52,383 nucleotides of DNA from Fibrobacter intestinalis (GTDB lineage: Bacteria > Fibrobacterota > Fibrobacteria > Fibrobacterales > Fibrobacteraceae). This document shows, piece by piece, positions 1,050-47,469 of the stretch. The notes beneath the pieces were generated by a model. The model worked only from the letters and a program-made list of their open reading frames with translations. It was not told the origin of the DNA and did not search any database. The position numbers were made by a program, and so were the translations under genes. Position 1 is the stretch's first letter. Each line of letters begins with the position of its first letter. Location of the stretch: the NCBI RefSeq assembly GCF_900167415.1, contig NZ_FUWU01000021.1:1-52383 (forward strand), in the 5' to 3' direction.

Positions 1050-4000
1050 ATGGTCCGGTTGTTTTCGCTCCTGTTGTCCTTTTTCCTCTTTGCTCCGCCC
1101 ATCTTTGCGGCGGTTCATGCCGTTCCCTACAATGTCCGGACGGTTCTCGATTTAAGCGACGGGGACACGCTTTCCCTGACGGGATTTCCGGTGGGGTGGG
1201 CGTATTCCCGCGTGGTCCTCGGCATCAACTCGACGCCATCCGTCCCGATGGCAGGGCATCTTGTCGTCAACAACTGCAAATACACTCTGGACTCCTATTA
1301 CCGGGAAATTGCCTTTGCGACAGAGATTAAAATTACGTATTCGGGAAATCCGCAACAGAGGATGCCCATACAATGGTGGGTTGATGCACAGACGAACTTT
1401 TCCCCCTGCGTATCCGAGTCGGAAATGTCCAGAGAAGATTCGCTTCAAGTCGCCTTAAAGAATTTTTCCGATTCTATATATACCAACAAGATTAAAAATT
1501 ATAGAAGTTTGGGTGAGTTGAATTCGGAAACCTTTTTTGAAGGTAGTTCGGGAAATTTTAAAATTGAAAAGCTCCCAAGTTGGTTCTACAATCGCATTTA
1601 CGTACAAATAGAATCTGTTGATGGTCGTGAACTGAATGGTAGCTCTTATGCGGGTGGGAAACGCGCTAAAATATCGGGACAAACCGCCACTTTTGCCGTT
1701 GTTCAAAAGAATAGGTATGCTCCAACATTTGAACTTGCTTTTCCTGAATATCGAAGGGTCAAGTTGAAATGGTGGGTGGAAGTTGGCGCACCAAAAGAAA
1801 GCGTTGTTGCTGCAGTAGAAGATAAGCTGAGCGAGGACTCCGTTCATGTCCTCTATTCCTTTGGGGAAAGTCCGTACACGAATGGGAAAATTAGTTTGAC
1901 ATTCGATAGACGTAATTTTACGGATGGCAAGATTCCTGTTGTAAAAAAGCTTTCTTTTGATCCGCAAGGAATTAGCCAATTAGGTGCTCTTGGAATACGT
2001 GGAAACATTTATGACTTTGAGGCTAATATAAATATCGGCGATAGTGTAACACTCGCCATTCCCCTTGATTTTGATTACAATCCAGAAACGGATTCCATAA
2101 CAATTGAGCATTTTATTGAAACTGAAAATCGTTGGATGGAAGAGCCTGTAGATAGTGTTGTTGGCAATGTTGCCTATTTTAAGGTTGGGCATTTTAGTTG
2201 GCTCCGTTCCTTTTGCCGAAAGGTGGCGAAAACTGCGGTTTCGGTAATGGTTCCGGCTTCAATCATATGTTCGCAGCTGTCAGAGACGTGTGCAAATGTT
2301 GTAGATGATATAGTCAATGGTGTTGCAGAAGTAGATGCGGATATTTTATCGATTCCAGGGAATTTGATTAGTGGTGCCGTTGAAGGTGTTGCTTGGATTT
2401 GGAACCTGCTGGAAAGTCTTTTGTGTTTGGATTTTAGCGAGTTGAAGAATATTTTTGGCTTGCCTAGAACACCTACTTGGGAGATTGAACAAGGGATTCT
2501 TCCTTTTGATGTTTTGCACGAACAAGGAACTATGCGCATAGATGATACAAGTCTTATTGGGGTATTGAAAGACTTACGAAAATCTAATTTCGTAAAGCTG
2601 GAAGACTCCAAAAATAGTGGTTGCTCTGATGATGATGAAATTTGCAAGTGGAAAACAACTCGAAATAATCTAGACATATTGTTGGCCGATGCCATTCTTG
2701 CGAAAATGGACCCTAAACTTGATACAGCAAATTATGGAAAGGCAACATATTCTTATTCAGGGGAGGATGCCGACAAAGTAATAGATTCTTCGGGTAAAGA
2801 GTTTCATTTTAAAGATTACTTTATGACAAATAGTGGCTTGATTGAAAATGCGGCTTGGTTTATTGAAGGTTTAAAATCCTGTTATGGGGTGCTTAATTAT
2901 GCTAGCGGCATAGCTCAAAATTATATTAATTTATATAAATTCATCAAAAAAACTTCTTATACAGGTTCATGTCGTGCGGTTCTTGATTTGATGGTATCCG
3001 ATAAAATAGACTTCGTTGATAATGGATTTAATTGTTCTGAATTTATTCCTCAAATAGTTTCAGACCATTCCATATTGAACAGCCATTCAGAAAAACTTAT
3101 CAAAATCTCAGAAGCGATGGTTCGCGTATCGCTGCTCGCTTGGCTCAACAAAGATGATTTTCGAGATTTTTCTCTTCTCGCTTATAAATCTGTTTATGAT
3201 GGGATTCGTTCTTGGTTGGAGCTTGCTGGGCCTTTCTTTGATTTCAACAATGTGGCCATCAAGGCTTATGGAAGTATTGCTTTATATGAATATATCCATT
3301 ACGGCACAGACAACAACTTTGCCATGGTTAATGGCGCCTTGAAACATCATTATGGTAGCCATGGCGGCTATTCGGAAGGAACGGGATATTCCCAGTATAT
3401 TTGGGATGATTTGACGTATGTTCTTGCTGCGATGAAGGTGGCTTATGCAAATAAAGGGGACACCCTTAAAATAGAGGAAAAGTTTCTAAAATCTCCGGAC
3501 TATATGTTCGAATTTTCTCGACCTGTAGCGAATGTGGGCCTTGTTCCCATAGAAATCGACGATGGTGTAACTTACAATCCAGATTATCGGGTTTGGGCGA
3601 AAATAAAGAACGATGCGAAATACATTGCCATGAGCAACGCCTACCCCCTAAAATGCGTCGATGGCAAGATAAATAGTCTTCTTCCTTTTGGATTTCCCAG
3701 CAAAGATTTATATCTTTCTAACGGGAATACTTTACCCGTTCGGGGAAAAATCTGGAGTAATTTTCAGGACGGCATAGGATTGATTTCCGTTGAAAATGTA
3801 AGTGGCGATACAGTGACGCTTTCGATGATAGCCGAAAGCGGTAATTTGTGGACTCGCGGGCAGGCGCATGACCAACAGGATAATTTGTCCATAACCCTTG
3901 CCAGTTCACGGAACGGCTTCATCCTTCAAGATAGAGGATATACTGGTTTTGGCGACAGAGCTGAAGACGATGCGTTCCATCGCTATAACAGCCATAATGT

Positions 4001-4973
4001 TTTGACCTATAATAAGGGAAATGGACAAGAAGATAATCGGATCATTGGATTTTCTGAACTGTGGCCCAGGATTAATGACTTTACCGGATCCTTTCCAGGT
4101 GCTTTGATATCAACGATTCTTGCTGGTGTAGAAATCTATTGGAACATTTTCGGGATTGACCATGAATTTCGCGTCGAAGGCGGTAATGAGGCGTCCGTTT
4201 TGGGAGAAGTCAAGGATTTTGCGAATAAGGCTGTCGGTTATACCGCGGAAACTAAGATCGATAAACCTGCTGCCGCCACGTCAGTGCCGGAAATTTACAA
4301 CAATCGGAGTATTTTGTATTTTGGTGGAAATTTCTGGGTAATCGACAGGCCTACTTCTACAGGGATGAAGTGGCTCGGGAACTCACCGGTAGCGGGGTGG
4401 GATGTTTTGAAGAGCTGCGGATTGAAAGTCTTTGGCTCGTCTCAAGCACCATTAGATGCGGATAGTTATTTGTATGCCCCTATAAAACAAAACGGAGCTA
4501 GAACCGATTTTCCGGGCGGCGAATTGTTAAACCATTCATTTTCCTTCTATGACAAGGATGCAGCAACCTATGTAATGACATACGCTGTCGATGATGAAAA
4601 TTTTGAAAAGACACTTTTGAATTGCCCCAAAGATTATCAATGTTTTGAAAATGCCTCCGCCAATAAACGCCTGATCGTTCCTCCTCGGAATTCAAAATTC
4701 AGAATTTGCAAGGCACTGCCTGCAAATGAATGCAGTGGTGAGGTAAAGTCGTCCGGCATAACCATGATGATCAAGAAATCATCCCATTCATGGACTGCGG
4801 ACTGGGTTCTTGACGGAAAATTGACGAAAAATGAAAATTCCGTGGAAACAGATATTGCTGGCGTAACGGTTTCACGAACAGGGTATGTAATCAGGAACCT
4901 GGATGGATCGACCCAAAACGGCAAATATGAAAGCCCCAATTTGCCGGCAATACCCCTTCTTCTCTTGAGGTAA
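1050..4973 (+). CDS. Large secreted protein with heparinase II/III-like region
   Basis: This encodes a 1307-residue protein with an N-terminal signal peptide (hydrophobic to about residue 20). Residues ~330-385 contain a beta-rich segment ending in a YFKVGHFSW-like motif. Residues ~770-783 carry GGYSEGTGYSQY, and ~937-990 carry a GQAHDQQDNLS block, then LQDRGYTGF and a SHNVLTY motif. This order resembles the toroid and beta-sheet halves of heparinase II/III-like polysaccharide lyases, where an EG..Y motif and an HxxDQ..S/HN pair are typical. The substrate is unknown and activity is not proven. The gene sits 3 bases after a small secreted protein and 2 bases before a lipoprotein gene. By eye, the first ~135 codons are GC-rich like their neighbours and the rest is clearly AT-richer, suggesting a mosaic origin. 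The heparinase call is made from motifs only. Confidence 0.7.
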   Translation: MVRLFSLLLSFFLFAPPIFAAVHAVPYNVRTVLDLSDGDTLSLTGFPVGWAYSRVVLGINSTPSVPMAGHLVVNNCKYTLDSYYREIAFATEIKITYSGNPQQRMPIQWWVDAQTNFSPCVSESEMSREDSLQVALKNFSDSIYTNKIKNYRSLGELNSETFFEGSSGNFKIEKLPSWFYNRIYVQIESVDGRELNGSSYAGGKRAKISGQTATFAVVQKNRYAPTFELAFPEYRRVKLKWWVEVGAPKESVVAAVEDKLSEDSVHVLYSFGESPYTNGKISLTFDRRNFTDGKIPVVKKLSFDPQGISQLGALGIRGNIYDFEANINIGDSVTLAIPLDFDYNPETDSITIEHFIETENRWMEEPVDSVVGNVAYFKVGHFSWLRSFCRKVAKTAVSVMVPASIICSQLSETCANVVDDIVNGVAEVDADILSIPGNLISGAVEGVAWIWNLLESLLCLDFSELKNIFGLPRTPTWEIEQGILPFDVLHEQGTMRIDDTSLIGVLKDLRKSNFVKLEDSKNSGCSDDDEICKWKTTRNNLDILLADAILAKMDPKLDTANYGKATYSYSGEDADKVIDSSGKEFHFKDYFMTNSGLIENAAWFIEGLKSCYGVLNYASGIAQNYINLYKFIKKTSYTGSCRAVLDLMVSDKIDFVDNGFNCSEFIPQIVSDHSILNSHSEKLIKISEAMVRVSLLAWLNKDDFRDFSLLAYKSVYDGIRSWLELAGPFFDFNNVAIKAYGSIALYEYIHYGTDNNFAMVNGALKHHYGSHGGYSEGTGYSQYIWDDLTYVLAAMKVAYANKGDTLKIEEKFLKSPDYMFEFSRPVANVGLVPIEIDDGVTYNPDYRVWAKIKNDAKYIAMSNAYPLKCVDGKINSLLPFGFPSKDLYLSNGNTLPVRGKIWSNFQDGIGLISVENVSGDTVTLSMIAESGNLWTRGQAHDQQDNLSITLASSRNGFILQDRGYTGFGDRAEDDAFHRYNSHNVLTYNKGNGQEDNRIIGFSELWPRINDFTGSFPGALISTILAGVEIYWNIFGIDHEFRVEGGNEASVLGEVKDFANKAVGYTAETKIDKPAAATSVPEIYNNRSILYFGGNFWVIDRPTSTGMKWLGNSPVAGWDVLKSCGLKVFGSSQAPLDADSYLYAPIKQNGARTDFPGGELLNHSFSFYDKDAATYVMTYAVDDENFEKTLLNCPKDYQCFENASANKRLIVPPRNSKFRICKALPANECSGEVKSSGITMMIKKSSHSWTADWVLDGKLTKNENSVETDIAGVTVSRTGYVIRNLDGSTQNGKYESPNLPAIPLLLLR

Positions 4974-4975
4974 GC

Positions 4976-5728
4976 ATGGTTAAAATTTTACTGTTCATCT
5001 GCCTGCTGTTACTGAATAGTTGTTCTTGCATTTATGGAGGCGACGATCAGCCTCCTCCGGAACCCTTTCACTATTCAGGAAATATAGAAACTAGAACGCA
5101 CAAGCCGTTGCTTTTTGAATTTGAATGGCAGGATGATTCTTTGGTAAAAGCTGGCGTTTTTGTAAAATACGTTGAAAGTGTGGAAAATTCTTCTAATTGC
5201 CCAAATTGTGAAGATTCTTTAGGTTGTAGTTGTTACGTAAAGGGTGCTCGCTATGCTTTGGAGTCCAAAGTGGTCGGCGAAGATTCTTTGTTTACTACCA
5301 GAGGATCCGAAATAGATTCTCTCGTGGTCAAGCTATTCCACTCTATCGATTCCACGCAGCATCTTAAATTCTCCTTGAAGGACTCGGCAAATGCTGTCAA
5401 ATCTTACAATCTGGATTTGACCCCTTTGATTTCTTATGCCAATAGTCCAATGCATTATGAAATTCGTGGTGATTCCATCGACATATTCCTTCCCGAAGGG
5501 AATTTTTACGTTTTGTATATCGGATCTTGTTATAATGGCATTGATGATTTTGATGAGTTTAATGACATGTGCTGGGTATATAAAACTTCTAAAGATTCAC
5601 AAACCATAACCTTGGAAGTAGCCGCTTTTACCCATTTGTTTTATGAGGTTCACTTTGATTTTGATGAAGAAAACAACACGGAAGGGGATTTCTTTACTTT
5701 TAAATGGAAATACTCCAATGTGTTTTAG
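4976..5728 (+). CDS. Lipoprotein, function unknown
   Basis: This encodes a 250-residue lipoprotein. The signal peptide ends in a lipobox LLNSC with C16 as the likely lipidated cysteine. A second cysteine follows two residues later, and a CPNCEDSLGCSC cluster sits near residue 70. The remainder is acidic and beta-rich by composition. It begins 2 bases after the large heparinase-like gene and its end overlaps the start of the next lipoprotein gene by 11 bases, so all belong to one operon. The family is not recognised. A surface partner of the large protein is plausible but inferred only from order. Confidence 0.75.
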   Translation: MVKILLFICLLLLNSCSCIYGGDDQPPPEPFHYSGNIETRTHKPLLFEFEWQDDSLVKAGVFVKYVESVENSSNCPNCEDSLGCSCYVKGARYALESKVVGEDSLFTTRGSEIDSLVVKLFHSIDSTQHLKFSLKDSANAVKSYNLDLTPLISYANSPMHYEIRGDSIDIFLPEGNFYVLYIGSCYNGIDDFDEFNDMCWVYKTSKDSQTITLEVAAFTHLFYEVHFDFDEENNTEGDFFTFKWKYSNVF

Positions 5729-41919: not shown

Positions 41920-42780
41920 TTAGAACCAGCGCCATGTAATGCCAAGGGTCACCGCATCGCGATATTGCGTATCTTCATCAATGTCCTTGTCATAAGCCAC
42001 ATCCACGCCAACGCTCAAAACGATAAGCGGAGCAATCGTTACGTCCAAACGGTTTTCCCATTTGCCATCGATTTCATCAACACCCTTGAAATTCACGAAA
42101 GCCCACAGGCGAGTTTTGAAAGAAGCCAAAGAGGAAAGGGCGACTTTGTATTCCGTCACGCTTTCCAAACCCGGTTCGTCCTTGAAAGTTTCAATCTTTT
42201 TCGTATCGGCATCGTCGGCCCAGCCGTAACCGTCCGAAATGGTCATCCGATTCGCAAAGGCGATACTCTGTCTAAAGTTGTCATTCGGGGCAAACGAAAC
42301 ACCCAACATCTGCGTAAAGTAGCCCGGATCCATAAAGCAGGAAATTGGCGTTTTTGTCGAATCCGTATAGGTGTAGCTCTTGGCGAACTGGGATTCAAAA
42401 CGAAGGCCCGCATAAGGTTCAAACGGTTTAAAATCGTTCTCAGCGACCGTCGTTTCAATAAAAATCTTGTCGTTGGACTTGCGGGTTCCCAAGCCTTTCA
42501 TATAGGTCTGTCCCCATTCCAGTTTCACCACGGAACGCCAGTCGAAATGCGAAAAATGGCCGATTACGTCGGCATCGTATTTCAGGATCCAGACGTTCGT
42601 ATTCACCCCGTCGGCCCCATTGTTCCAGTTGCTGTAATGTTGGCGCGTAAACTGTGCAGAAGCGAGCACATCTGCATTCCAGTTTTTAGGAAGCGCGCCA
42701 GAAAACATACCGTCTTCCGCAAAAGAAGATGCGGCAAAAAGAGTTGCGGCAAGTGCCAAAAATTTTGTCGTTTTCATCAT
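41920..42780 (-). CDS. DUF3078 outer-membrane beta-barrel protein
   Basis: The 286-residue protein has a signal peptide (cut near SSFA-ED) and alternating beta-strand composition ending in ITWRWF. The final aromatic residue is the usual BAM recognition end. The early part (NWNADVLASAQFTRQHYSNW, NTNVWILKYDADV) is the DUF3078 signature. It should form a barrel in the outer membrane; the function is unknown. AGGAG lies ahead of the start. It is ~70 bases downstream of ffh on the same strand and may be separately expressed. Confidence 0.85.
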   Translation of the reverse strand: MMKTTKFLALAATLFAASSFAEDGMFSGALPKNWNADVLASAQFTRQHYSNWNNGADGVNTNVWILKYDADVIGHFSHFDWRSVVKLEWGQTYMKGLGTRKSNDKIFIETTVAENDFKPFEPYAGLRFESQFAKSYTYTDSTKTPISCFMDPGYFTQMLGVSFAPNDNFRQSIAFANRMTISDGYGWADDADTKKIETFKDEPGLESVTEYKVALSSLASFKTRLWAFVNFKGVDEIDGKWENRLDVTIAPLIVLSVGVDVAYDKDIDEDTQYRDAVTLGITWRWF

Positions 42781-44309: not shown

Positions 44310-45167
44310 TCAATACAAATACCATTCCCATTTTACCGTGCAGTCGGAATTCTGGTAATCGCTCTGCTCTTGCTCGTCATAGTCTTTCAGATAGCCGATA
44401 CTGAAAACGCTGTAACACTTTCTCGAACTGTAATTGTCGTCGCCGTCGGAAGACACGTCTTCATCTATGACTGTTGGACATACTTTTATCGTTTGGGTCA
44501 AAGCGGGGATTGTTTTTGTCGTACAAGAATTTCCGCTCCAAAATTTCGTATTATCTTTATCCAGCAACTTTCCCGTATAAATCGTCGTGGATTGCCCGGC
44601 AGAAGTTATGGCGTAAATGGTAAAGGAAATTTCCGGGTCGCCAACGCCCAAGCCATCCCAATTGTTTTCGGTTTCAAAATATGTCAGGCAGAACTTCATA
44701 CTTTTTGACGATTCCAGATAACTTTTGCACTGATAGCCGTAAGTGGAGCAGCAATAGGAATCCGAATAAGCGGAAGTACCGAGTCTGCATTTTTCCGATT
44801 CGCTCTGGTAGCTGGAACTGGAAGAAGAATAGCCGTAATAGCTGGAACTCGACGAGGAATAGCACTTGATTCCGTAATAAGAGCAACATTCTTGTTCGGA
44901 ATAATGCGGATACTCACTGTATGCGCAATCTTGCTCACAGAGCAAATTGTATTTAGAGCAACAGGATGAGTAGTCCAAATAGCCTTCGCTACACCGCATC
45001 CTTTCGTAAGCTTCTTCTTCCCGTTCGGCGGCATATCTATTGTCCCTGCTCTGCTCGCCAATTTTCTCATCGACATCCGCAATCGCATCCATTTCTTCTC
45101 CGCAACAAGCGAGCAGCAGGGCGACAAATAGTAAAAAACTCCACTTAAGCAAAGCTATTTTTTTCAT
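44310..45167 (-). CDS. Cys-rich lipoprotein with poly-Ser/Tyr linkers
   Basis: The start at 45167 (MKKIALLKW) is chosen, with AGAGGA upstream. The lipobox is LLLAC (C21). Three cysteine modules follow: C59...C69-C70...C77, C81...C94-C95...C102 and C127...C139-C140...C147. Each has the pattern C-x(9-12)-CCSxYx(4)C. Between the second and third are runs of serine with tyrosine, like the linkers known from Fibrobacter envelope proteins. The last ~130 residues form a separate beta-rich part. No family name is known to me. It is followed by no gene on this strand; a Cys-rich barrel gene lies 12 bases upstream. Confidence 0.75.
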   Translation of the reverse strand: MKKIALLKWSFLLFVALLLACCGEEMDAIADVDEKIGEQSRDNRYAAEREEEAYERMRCSEGYLDYSSCCSKYNLLCEQDCAYSEYPHYSEQECCSYYGIKCYSSSSSSYYGYSSSSSSYQSESEKCRLGTSAYSDSYCCSTYGYQCKSYLESSKSMKFCLTYFETENNWDGLGVGDPEISFTIYAITSAGQSTTIYTGKLLDKDNTKFWSGNSCTTKTIPALTQTIKVCPTVIDEDVSSDGDDNYSSRKCYSVFSIGYLKDYDEQEQSDYQNSDCTVKWEWYLY

Positions 45168-45179
45168 AAACAAAGTCCT

Positions 45180-46631
45180 CTAGAAAATCAAATCCATCTT
45201 GATTCGCCAAGTGCCTATCGTTTCGGGAGATTCCGAAAAACTATGCCTCCTATAAGTTTCCTCGGAATAAAGCAGGCGTTGAAACGCTACAGAAAGACGA
45301 TGGAAAAATTCCACGCCAACCCCCACAAATCCCAAAAATTCAAAGCTCCCCATTTCATACCCATATCCACTGGGCATCCAGTCGTCGTAAGAATCCGCAT
45401 CAGCATAAGTACCGCTATAACCATCCATCGTCAAATGATACCAGACGCAAATCGGCTTGCGAATGTACATCGTATAACTCAAGAACGGACCGATTTTTCG
45501 AGGAATCCGGAGGCGAAACTCCAACGGCACTTCGGCAAGAATTTTATGATAGCGCAAAACGGGATCTGAATATGGATATGAATATGAATTTTCTTCCACA
45601 TCGAGATGAGAAAATTGATAAACGGCGTTCAGCCCCAACAGAAAAGAACCGTATTTGAAAAAATCCCATCGCATCAAAAAGCCGCCTCCCGCAGAAAAGC
45701 CTTGATCACAATCCAGGTACAAGTCGCCATTGTGGTCCCCATAAGCTTCTGTGTCCTTGTCCACAAGCCGACCGGCAAAAAGAGACAGCCCCATATAAAA
45801 AATCCGCTTGTCTTTTTTAGGGGTTGAATCCATTTGAAGCGTATCCAAATCCGCAACGGCACTTTCCGTCAAAACCTGAAGGGACTTGGGCGCACTATCC
45901 TGAAGAGCGACAATCGCCCGACTCGTCACCGTATCTTGCGGCGGTTTCAGGGAGGAAATTTCGGTTTTACGAATGTCCAAAATTTGAAAATCCTTGGTCG
46001 CAAACGTTACCATAAAAAGAGAGTCGCCGCTTTCCTTTTGAAATTTCAGGACGGAATCCGCCGCAGCCCTCAAATTCTGTTTTCGCGCAATCCATTCTTC
46101 CATTTTCTGAAGGCTATCCGCTTTGACCTTTTGAGCAAGGCGTTCCGTTTGTTCAGCAAATGCCTGGCAACCGCAGATGTTTTCAATCTGGACGCAATTC
46201 GAATCATTCCGCTTTTCTTCCGGGCAAATAGCACAAAAGTTACGGCATTCCTCGGTCTGCGTCAAAAGCGGTTCCTCGATTTTTGTAGAGTCGTTGTGCG
46301 CCTTGGATTTTATGCGCAGCGGGGTCTGTGCTTTTTTCACTTCTGCAAGGGAGTCTCCATGAAATTTCAATTCCAAAGAACAGAATTTTCGGGGACAAAG
46401 AGATTCGATTTCTTTGGAAAGTGTCGCCACTGCGGATTCTTGCGCTTTGGCCTTTTGAATTTCCACTTGTTGAATGCTGTCGAGAACCTTGCTGCAATAG
46501 CACAAAGAATCTATTCCGCTGCATATCGAATCCGTCGGATTTGTAGTACAGGTCGTGCAAAGGGTGGCACACATTTCACCGGCAAGCAATGGTGCTGCAA
46601 AAAAAATTGGAATGCAAAATCGAAAATTCAT
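45180..46631 (-). CDS. Outer-membrane barrel with duplicated Cys module
   Basis: The 483-residue protein has a signal peptide (to about residue 18). Two six-cysteine modules follow, at C21, 25, 28, 37, 44, 46 and C129, 133, 136, 146, 153, 155. Both read CxxxCxxC, then C, then CxC. The middle is a charged helical stretch, and from ~280 on the sequence is beta-barrel-like, ending in MDLIF. This combination of a periplasmic or surface Cys head and a barrel is unusual. The next gene, a Cys-rich lipoprotein, starts 12 bases downstream, so they are likely co-expressed partners. Confidence 0.72.
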   Translation of the reverse strand: MNFRFCIPIFFAAPLLAGEMCATLCTTCTTNPTDSICSGIDSLCYCSKVLDSIQQVEIQKAKAQESAVATLSKEIESLCPRKFCSLELKFHGDSLAEVKKAQTPLRIKSKAHNDSTKIEEPLLTQTEECRNFCAICPEEKRNDSNCVQIENICGCQAFAEQTERLAQKVKADSLQKMEEWIARKQNLRAAADSVLKFQKESGDSLFMVTFATKDFQILDIRKTEISSLKPPQDTVTSRAIVALQDSAPKSLQVLTESAVADLDTLQMDSTPKKDKRIFYMGLSLFAGRLVDKDTEAYGDHNGDLYLDCDQGFSAGGGFLMRWDFFKYGSFLLGLNAVYQFSHLDVEENSYSYPYSDPVLRYHKILAEVPLEFRLRIPRKIGPFLSYTMYIRKPICVWYHLTMDGYSGTYADADSYDDWMPSGYGYEMGSFEFLGFVGVGVEFFHRLSVAFQRLLYSEETYRRHSFSESPETIGTWRIKMDLIF

Positions 46632-47217: not shown

Positions 47218-47424
47218 TCAATACCATCGAAAACCCTGACGCTTCATGCAATTGGAAACAAAGTCGCCGCGTTCTACGTGATCTTTGCCCGCTTCGTATT
47301 CGCACTGGGCAAGGGCGTTTTCGGTTTCATACTCGCTGACGCCCTGTTTATGCCAGCCGACGGCACAGCCCGAAAGCACAAGGCAAGCCACAATACAAAG
47401 GACGAGAAAGGAAAATTTTTTCAT
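47218..47424 (-). CDS. Small lipoprotein
   Basis: The start at 47424 has AGGAG at a good distance; upstream ATG-like frames are ignored. The 68-residue product has the lipobox LVLSGC (C20) and a short charged mature part with three further residues of interest: C41, C59 and a final GFRWY. It is tiny but has all lipoprotein hallmarks. It is first in line before the lipoprotein gene at 46682, 35 bases away. Function unknown. Confidence 0.75.
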   Translation of the reverse strand: MKKFSFLVLCIVACLVLSGCAVGWHKQGVSEYETENALAQCEYEAGKDHVERGDFVSNCMKRQGFRWY

Positions 47425-47469
47425 GAGAATCTCCTGCATTTTCGCTTTCTTCAATGTAAAAAAAAACAT

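Follow-up and report, generated by a model that had tools for sequence, protein, structure and literature searches.

A lipoprotein with a predicted C2-fold domain and its neighbouring outer-membrane barrel protein form a conserved gene pair in Fibrobacterales

Two adjacent genes in a 52,383-nucleotide stretch of Fibrobacter intestinalis DNA (hereafter the window; it is contig C74 in a genome of 3.29 Mb) encode a lipoprotein and a barrel protein that form a conserved two-gene unit of Fibrobacterales, and the constant domain of the lipoprotein is predicted to fold as a C2 domain, with acidic loops of the C2 kind. These features suggest that the pair may tether the cell to a surface or membrane in a calcium-dependent way not described before. 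A sequence-only reading of the same DNA had proposed a disulfide-rich surface complex on the basis of two different cysteine modules in the neighbouring proteins; it overlooked what we consider the main feature, the C2-fold domain with its conserved acidic loops.

Both open reading frames were found on the minus strand, with the barrel gene first and the lipoprotein gene directly after it (Table 1), and the distance of 12 bases given for them in the sequence-only reading was confirmed. The spacer is bounded by the stop codon of the barrel gene (TAG, 45180-45182) and by the probable ATG of the lipoprotein gene, which is a likelier start codon than the TTG at 45173. A second barrel/lipoprotein pair is present in the same genome on another contig (C19); its lipoprotein shows 60% identity to the window protein over residues 117-287 of the latter, and its barrel protein shows 42% identity over the aligned part.

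Table 1. Features of the barrel and lipoprotein genes (positions in the window; residue numbers refer to the respective protein)
Feature	Position	Strand	Basis or remark
Lipoprotein ORF	44310..45173	-	287 aa from TTG 45173; 285 aa from ATG 45167
Predicted C2-fold domain, residues ~154-287	44313..44714	-	AlphaFold2, Foldseek, VIA-align, conservation
Lipoprotein 4-Cys module 3, C129-C149	44727..44789	-	C129-x11-CC; module profile E 2.4e-11
Ser/Tyr-rich linker of lipoprotein	44790..44861	-	Sequence
Lipoprotein 4-Cys module 2, C83-C104	44862..44927	-	Pattern scan; C83-x12-CC
Lipoprotein 4-Cys module 1, C61-C79	44937..44993	-	Pattern scan; C61-x9-CC
Putative lipid-anchor cysteines C23/C24	45102..45107	-	Sequence LLACC
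Intergenic spacer, 12 bp	45168..45179	-	AGGA ribosome-binding site (sequence)
Barrel protein ORF	45180..46631	-	483 aa; N terminus hydrophobic, resembling a signal peptide on visual inspection
Predicted outer-membrane barrel, residues 277-483	45183..45803	-	AlphaFold2; structural matches
Barrel 6-Cys module 2, C129-C155	46167..46247	-	Sequence; alignment
C79-x4-C84, start of the beta-hairpin closing repeat 1	46380..46397	-	Sequence; model hairpin 83-91/94-101
Barrel 6-Cys module 1, C21-C46	46494..46571	-	Invariant in 17/17 aligned barrels

The C-terminal domain of the lipoprotein was used as a profile to search 100 genomes, including that of the window, and matched at 42 places in 30 genomes. 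All 42 places were examined; 33 presented a barrel-family ORF directly upstream of the domain, i.e., same-strand stop-to-stop frames with anything from a 163-base overlap to a 17-base gap. The other nine comprise seven orphans without a barrel, one locus at a contig end (L094), and one locus with a different barrel-like gene (L112), where a putative outer-membrane barrel gene of another kind (3336-4607) is followed immediately by the gene for a C2-like lipoprotein (4611-5309). A named collection, which overlaps the 42 places, contained 19 lipoprotein loci, 16 of them paired with the barrel gene; 18 of these 19 relatives are titled as Fibrobacter or Fibrobacteraceae MAGs and one is labelled Bacteroidales. 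The latter (L049) bears a Fibrobacter-type pair and is perhaps a mislabelled or contaminated bin. The barrel query matched in 23 of the 100 genomes (window's included), and 14 of 20 hand-picked barrel loci were paired with a lipoprotein; the unpaired loci are five long lone barrels without a lipoprotein (L036, L039-L042) and L037, which has two barrel genes beside a contig end. The linkage of the two genes in relatives, on which the sequence-only reading depended, is thus found both when counting from the lipoprotein (33/42 and 16/19) and when counting from the barrel (14/20). Further counts below refer to 55 lipoproteins and 44 non-redundant pairs, after removal of six duplicate rows; because this set mixes loci found via the barrel with loci found via the lipoprotein, 44/55 overstates the linkage, and 33/42 and 16/19 are the fairer figures.

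The pair has been duplicated jointly, both in the C19 pair and in a divergent subfamily whose domain and barrel have diverged to the same degree. Flanking genes vary between loci while the pair persists, and of the other gene families none accompanies more than 10 of the 44 pairs. Distance matrices of the two partners were correlated across 43 pairs (r = 0.66), within the 32 pairs of the main family (r = 0.44), and within the 11 pairs of the subfamily (r = 0.96), and none of 2000 permutations gave a correlation as high; these correlations show co-inheritance, not contact. Across the phylum, the domain was found in 59 of 167 genomes, and the sole matches outside the window's order were weak ones in one genome (G102; best E 4e-8). 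This genome presents C2-like lipoproteins interleaved with other putative barrel genes (L127:1907-7355), the neighbouring genes looking CsgG-like and barrel-like by sequence; a search for a barrel-family member at this locus found none. A distant C2-like lipoprotein at L128:2004-2744 likewise belongs, as in L127, to another family of the phylum.

Several other genes occur around the pair. In the window, a gene upstream of the barrel gene (47218-47469) encodes a small lipoprotein (..NCMKRQGFRWY) with look-alikes, likewise upstream of the barrel, in L027, L032, and L034, and the downstream gene (41920-42780) has a DUF3078 match (E 3.5e-10). Members of a large lipoprotein family are encoded near the pair on the same strand at 10 loci (L024:7859-9352, L030:6023-7573, and eight others), and the two longest of them end in RKYGIxPNDIP. 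Ten loci of the divergent subfamily (L095-L102, L105, and L108) have a very large protein encoded upstream on the opposite strand, with the motif VWKGNIEAPxKQTIGGKEYYVIEKAAHLAWFSDSVN...

The constant part of the lipoprotein family is its C-terminal domain of about 135 residues. AlphaFold2, run with a 20-sequence alignment, modelled residues 154-287 with 10-residue mean pLDDT values of 77-97. When this model was compared with the PDB using Foldseek, the best match was the C2 domain of cytosolic phospholipase A2 (cPLA2; E 1e-6, probability 1.00, target-normalised TM 0.66), with a loose superposition (rmsd 5.6); there were 56 matches at E ≤ 1e-3, and of the 50 listed, titles or known content identify 49 as C2 proteins, the exception being a Cry23/Cry37 complex. 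VIA-align, run on the C2 region of the lipoprotein, ranked E-Syt1 C2A first (Z 12.1; 120 residues superposed with rmsd 2.6) and gave Z values of 10-12; again all but one of the 50 matches listed could be assigned to C2 proteins from their titles or known content, the odd one out being 9nw3_3A (ciliary tip), whose title does not identify it as C2. The predicted model is an antiparallel beta-sandwich of about 130 residues like those of solved C2 domains. Pfam searches returned chance matches only for this domain, C2 not among them, and PDB sequence searches returned no C2 chain and no known domain; the C2 profile PF00168 gave no match in 60 genomes, but the 14 controls gave none either, so that this absence carries no information. 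As none of these sequence comparisons connects the domain with C2, homology to eukaryotic C2 domains is unproven. An aromatic C-terminal motif, WEWYL, is invariant in all 20 aligned rows and is not kept in divergent members.

Acidic residues of this domain are placed as in C2 domains: D173 and D179 belong to loop 1, position 208 to loop 2, and D237, D239, and D246 to loop 3 or its edge. In the model, the acids map to the loops joining strands 1-2 and 5-6 or to the margins of these loops, and position 208, which is N in the window protein and D in most relatives, falls between strands 3-4. Loops 1 and 3 are where C2 domains usually bind calcium. Among 33 paired members of the main family, D179 is present in all 33, D237 and D239 in 32 each, and D246 in 29, while position 173 is D in 27 and E in 5; by alignment, acids that may serve as Ca2+ ligands are therefore present in loops 1 and 3 of the main family. 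Eleven unpaired members have D or E at position 173 in all cases and D (seven) or E (four) at position 237. The divergent subfamily (11 members) has no acidic residue at position 173 and has D in one and N in six members at position 239; it keeps some acids (179 is D in seven, 237 is D in six, and 246 is E in ten). With its altered acidic site, this subfamily may, at a guess, be Ca2+-independent. Of the 55 members, 47 have both of the domain's cysteines C232 and C253, seven have neither, and a single member has only one of them; this joint presence or absence suggests a C232-C253 disulfide as likely.

The barrel protein was modelled by AlphaFold2 with a barrel of eight long strands in residues 277-483. 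The mean pLDDT of the model is 69, and its 10-residue means reach 96 in the strands and fall to 33 in the loops. Structural matches of residues ~275-483 include OprF (Z 14.1), OmpA (Z 13.1), and OmpW (Z 12.2), and the predicted model, with loops of low confidence, is an eight-stranded transmembrane beta-barrel of the OmpA/OprF type. The peptidoglycan-binding domain of OmpA (PF00691) was absent among the Pfam matches, and the protein ends with the barrel. The N-terminal part comprises, in the model, two repeats of a cysteine module, a long helix, and a beta-hairpin. Even-stranded outer-membrane barrels have both ends in the periplasm, and these repeats are therefore expected to be periplasmic. 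A barrel of eight strands offers no lumen through which a domain could be exported, so that the protein more probably serves as an anchor or partner than as a channel.

The cysteine modules noticed in the sequence-only reading are genuine but optional. The lipoprotein contains three four-cysteine modules and a serine linker as described there, and each module ends in CCSxYx(3)C, not with the x(4) spacing that had been given. The two CxxxCxxC..C..CxC modules ascribed to the barrel protein were likewise found. Cysteines C21, C25, C28, C37, C44, and C46 are invariant among 17 aligned barrels, which exceeds chance; in a second set of 17 barrels, five (L050, L055, L058, L059, and L062) gave no match to the module pattern. 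A pattern scan of family lipoproteins found 37 copies (33 distinct) of the four-cysteine module, including the three of the window, and all four cysteines are kept in 21 equal-length, hand-picked copies. A profile of this module searched against 60 genomes gave eight strong matches (E < 1e-9), all in this lipoprotein family; it missed the divergent modules 1 and 2 of the window lipoprotein and may likewise overlook further divergent copies. Pfam searches matched neither cysteine pattern beyond chance; a match to a known domain would have spoken against the sequence-only reading. The CCSxYGxxC string of the small lipoprotein module resembles the hevein-type chitin-binding domain; however, hevein-type domains have eight cysteines in about 40 residues and the Fibrobacter module has four in about 22, and a hevein/chitin-binding identity was rejected as Pfam gave no match to PF00187.

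Module counts vary from 0 to 3 per lipoprotein and from 0 to 2 six-cysteine modules per paired barrel. Both module types occur together in 18 of the 44 non-redundant pairs, that of the barrel alone in seven, that of the lipoprotein alone in one, and neither in the remaining 18. Cysteine modules were therefore rejected as the defining feature of the pair, contrary to the proposal that the two modules define the complex. The raw association between module types across pairs, with kinship ignored, has a Fisher p of 8e-6 and a Spearman coefficient of 0.71; in a tree-aware test, on a tree built without L111 (a barrel fragment at a contig start), there were three (or two) independent pairs on well-supported branches and six on all branches. 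Because independent pairs on supported branches are few, the association may reflect inheritance. The barrel-type module also occurs outside the barrel protein, in a small upstream gene (L035:6319-6783) encoding one six-cysteine module and a C-terminal hydrophobic segment; small genes matched by the barrel profile are also found upstream in L033, L044, L045, L114, and L117. The window's genome encodes a DsbA-like (Thioredoxin_4) protein, and profiles for DsbB and VKOR gave no match in this genome, though controls matched. A DsbA oxidoreductase has been reported in the envelope proteome of F. succinogenes (PMC4619616).

The computed evidence thus consists of linkage, joint duplication, predicted C2 and barrel folds, and conservation of the acidic loops and the cysteine pair; from it we infer Ca2+ binding, disulfides, contact between lipoprotein and barrel, the side of the membrane, and a ligand. 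The reading that we prefer, and regard as reasonably probable, is that this outer-membrane pair displays a C2 domain that acts Ca2+-dependently and is carried on a Ser-rich stalk stiffened by disulfides. The barrel protein would be held in the outer membrane by its eight-stranded OmpA/OprF-type barrel, with its two N-terminal repeats (six-cysteine helical module, helix, and hairpin) facing the periplasm. The lipoprotein would be lipid-anchored, probably in the same membrane; one of C23/C24 is presumably lipid-modified, and C24 aligns with the lipobox cysteine of relatives, a lipobox-like motif having been picked automatically in 53 of the 55 family members with at least five picks misplaced. 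Its four-cysteine modules and Ser-rich linkers (an SSSS run is present in 45 of the 55 members) would form the stalk, with the C2-fold domain at the tip. In the main family, this domain may bind Ca2+ through the Asp residues of its loops 1 and 3 and, in a Ca2+-dependent manner, may dock on an anionic surface, such as membrane lipid, LPS, or an acidic glycan; the altered site of the divergent subfamily may not require Ca2+.

The outside face is favoured for the C2-fold domain because of the Ser-rich stalk and the variable module numbers. A C-x-[DE][DE] start resembling surface-export signals described in Bacteroidota (PMC5080379) was scored in 22 of the 55 lipoproteins only; with some picks misplaced, this signal is matched in part and is no firm guide to the membrane side. 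An inward orientation, in which the C2-fold domain would span the periplasm to the inner membrane or to the inner leaflet of the outer membrane, similar to the C2 tethers of extended synaptotagmins (E-Syt), with the cysteine repeats of the barrel protein as a periplasmic partner, appears rather unlikely. The C2 domains of E-Syt rank among the top structural matches, barrel topology should place the repeats in the periplasm, some loci have a neighbouring gene bearing the barrel-type cysteine module and a hydrophobic C-terminal segment (e.g., L035), and C2 domains have been described as typically binding anionic membranes (PMC8507603); however, Ser-rich linkers with 0-3 modules look more like a surface stalk, and the extra cysteine-module gene is found in only a few loci.

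Still less probable, in our judgement, is that a Ca2+-stabilised C2-like sandwich holds plant cell-wall polymers, with the barrel as its anchor, which is the reading nearest to the adhesion role suggested by the sequence-only reading. While Fibrobacter outer-membrane complexes have been proposed to act in cellulose adhesion (PMC6851124) and WEWYL would offer invariant aromatic residues in the 20 aligned rows, this motif is lost in divergent members, the structural matches listed are C2 proteins and not carbohydrate-binding modules, and Pfam gave no carbohydrate-module match. It is quite improbable that two fast-evolving envelope proteins merely share operons, with the cysteine modules as unrelated disulfide stiffeners, for although seven of 42 lipoproteins are orphans, five barrels stand alone, and the association of module types may follow phylogeny, the pair stays together while neighbouring genes change, has been duplicated jointly and co-diverged, and at L112 a copy of the domain without a family barrel sits behind another barrel-like gene.

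The predicted Fibrobacter domain shares with the C2 domains of cPLA2 and E-Syt the antiparallel sandwich of about 130 residues and acidic positions in the loops joining strands 1-2, 3-4, and 5-6, and differs from them in being bacterial, exported, lipid-anchored, and without a sequence-profile match, with a probable disulfide. Extracellular C2 domains, such as those of perforin and Jagged/Serrate, are also among the structural matches and likewise have the C2 fold outside the cytosol; in Fibrobacter, however, the carrier is a lipoprotein with no MACPF or EGF domain beside it according to Pfam. The barrel protein shares the eight-stranded barrel fold with OmpA/OprF, but its barrel is C-terminal and preceded by cysteine-rich repeats, and Pfam detects no peptidoglycan-binding domain.

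Calcium-binding C2 domains are known mainly from animals and plants. Our searches of open-access literature listed no bacterial C2 outer-membrane lipoprotein, nor one tied to a barrel. C2 domains are usually treated as eukaryotic membrane-targeting domains (PMC5660162, PMC8507603). The C2 fold itself is known, and the outer-membrane setting and the two-gene module look new. Tentatively, and with somewhat less than even expectation, we suggest that Fibrobacterota may display a genuine Ca2+-binding C2 domain on the outer membrane via this dedicated lipoprotein/barrel pair, as a counterpart of eukaryotic C2 tethers, and that in the gut it would attach to anionic membranes or matrix in a Ca2+-dependent way. 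If this is true, a bacterial C2-like family outside Pfam recognition would bear on the origin of the fold, and cellulose degraders of the rumen would gain a Ca2+-dependent surface or tethering module.
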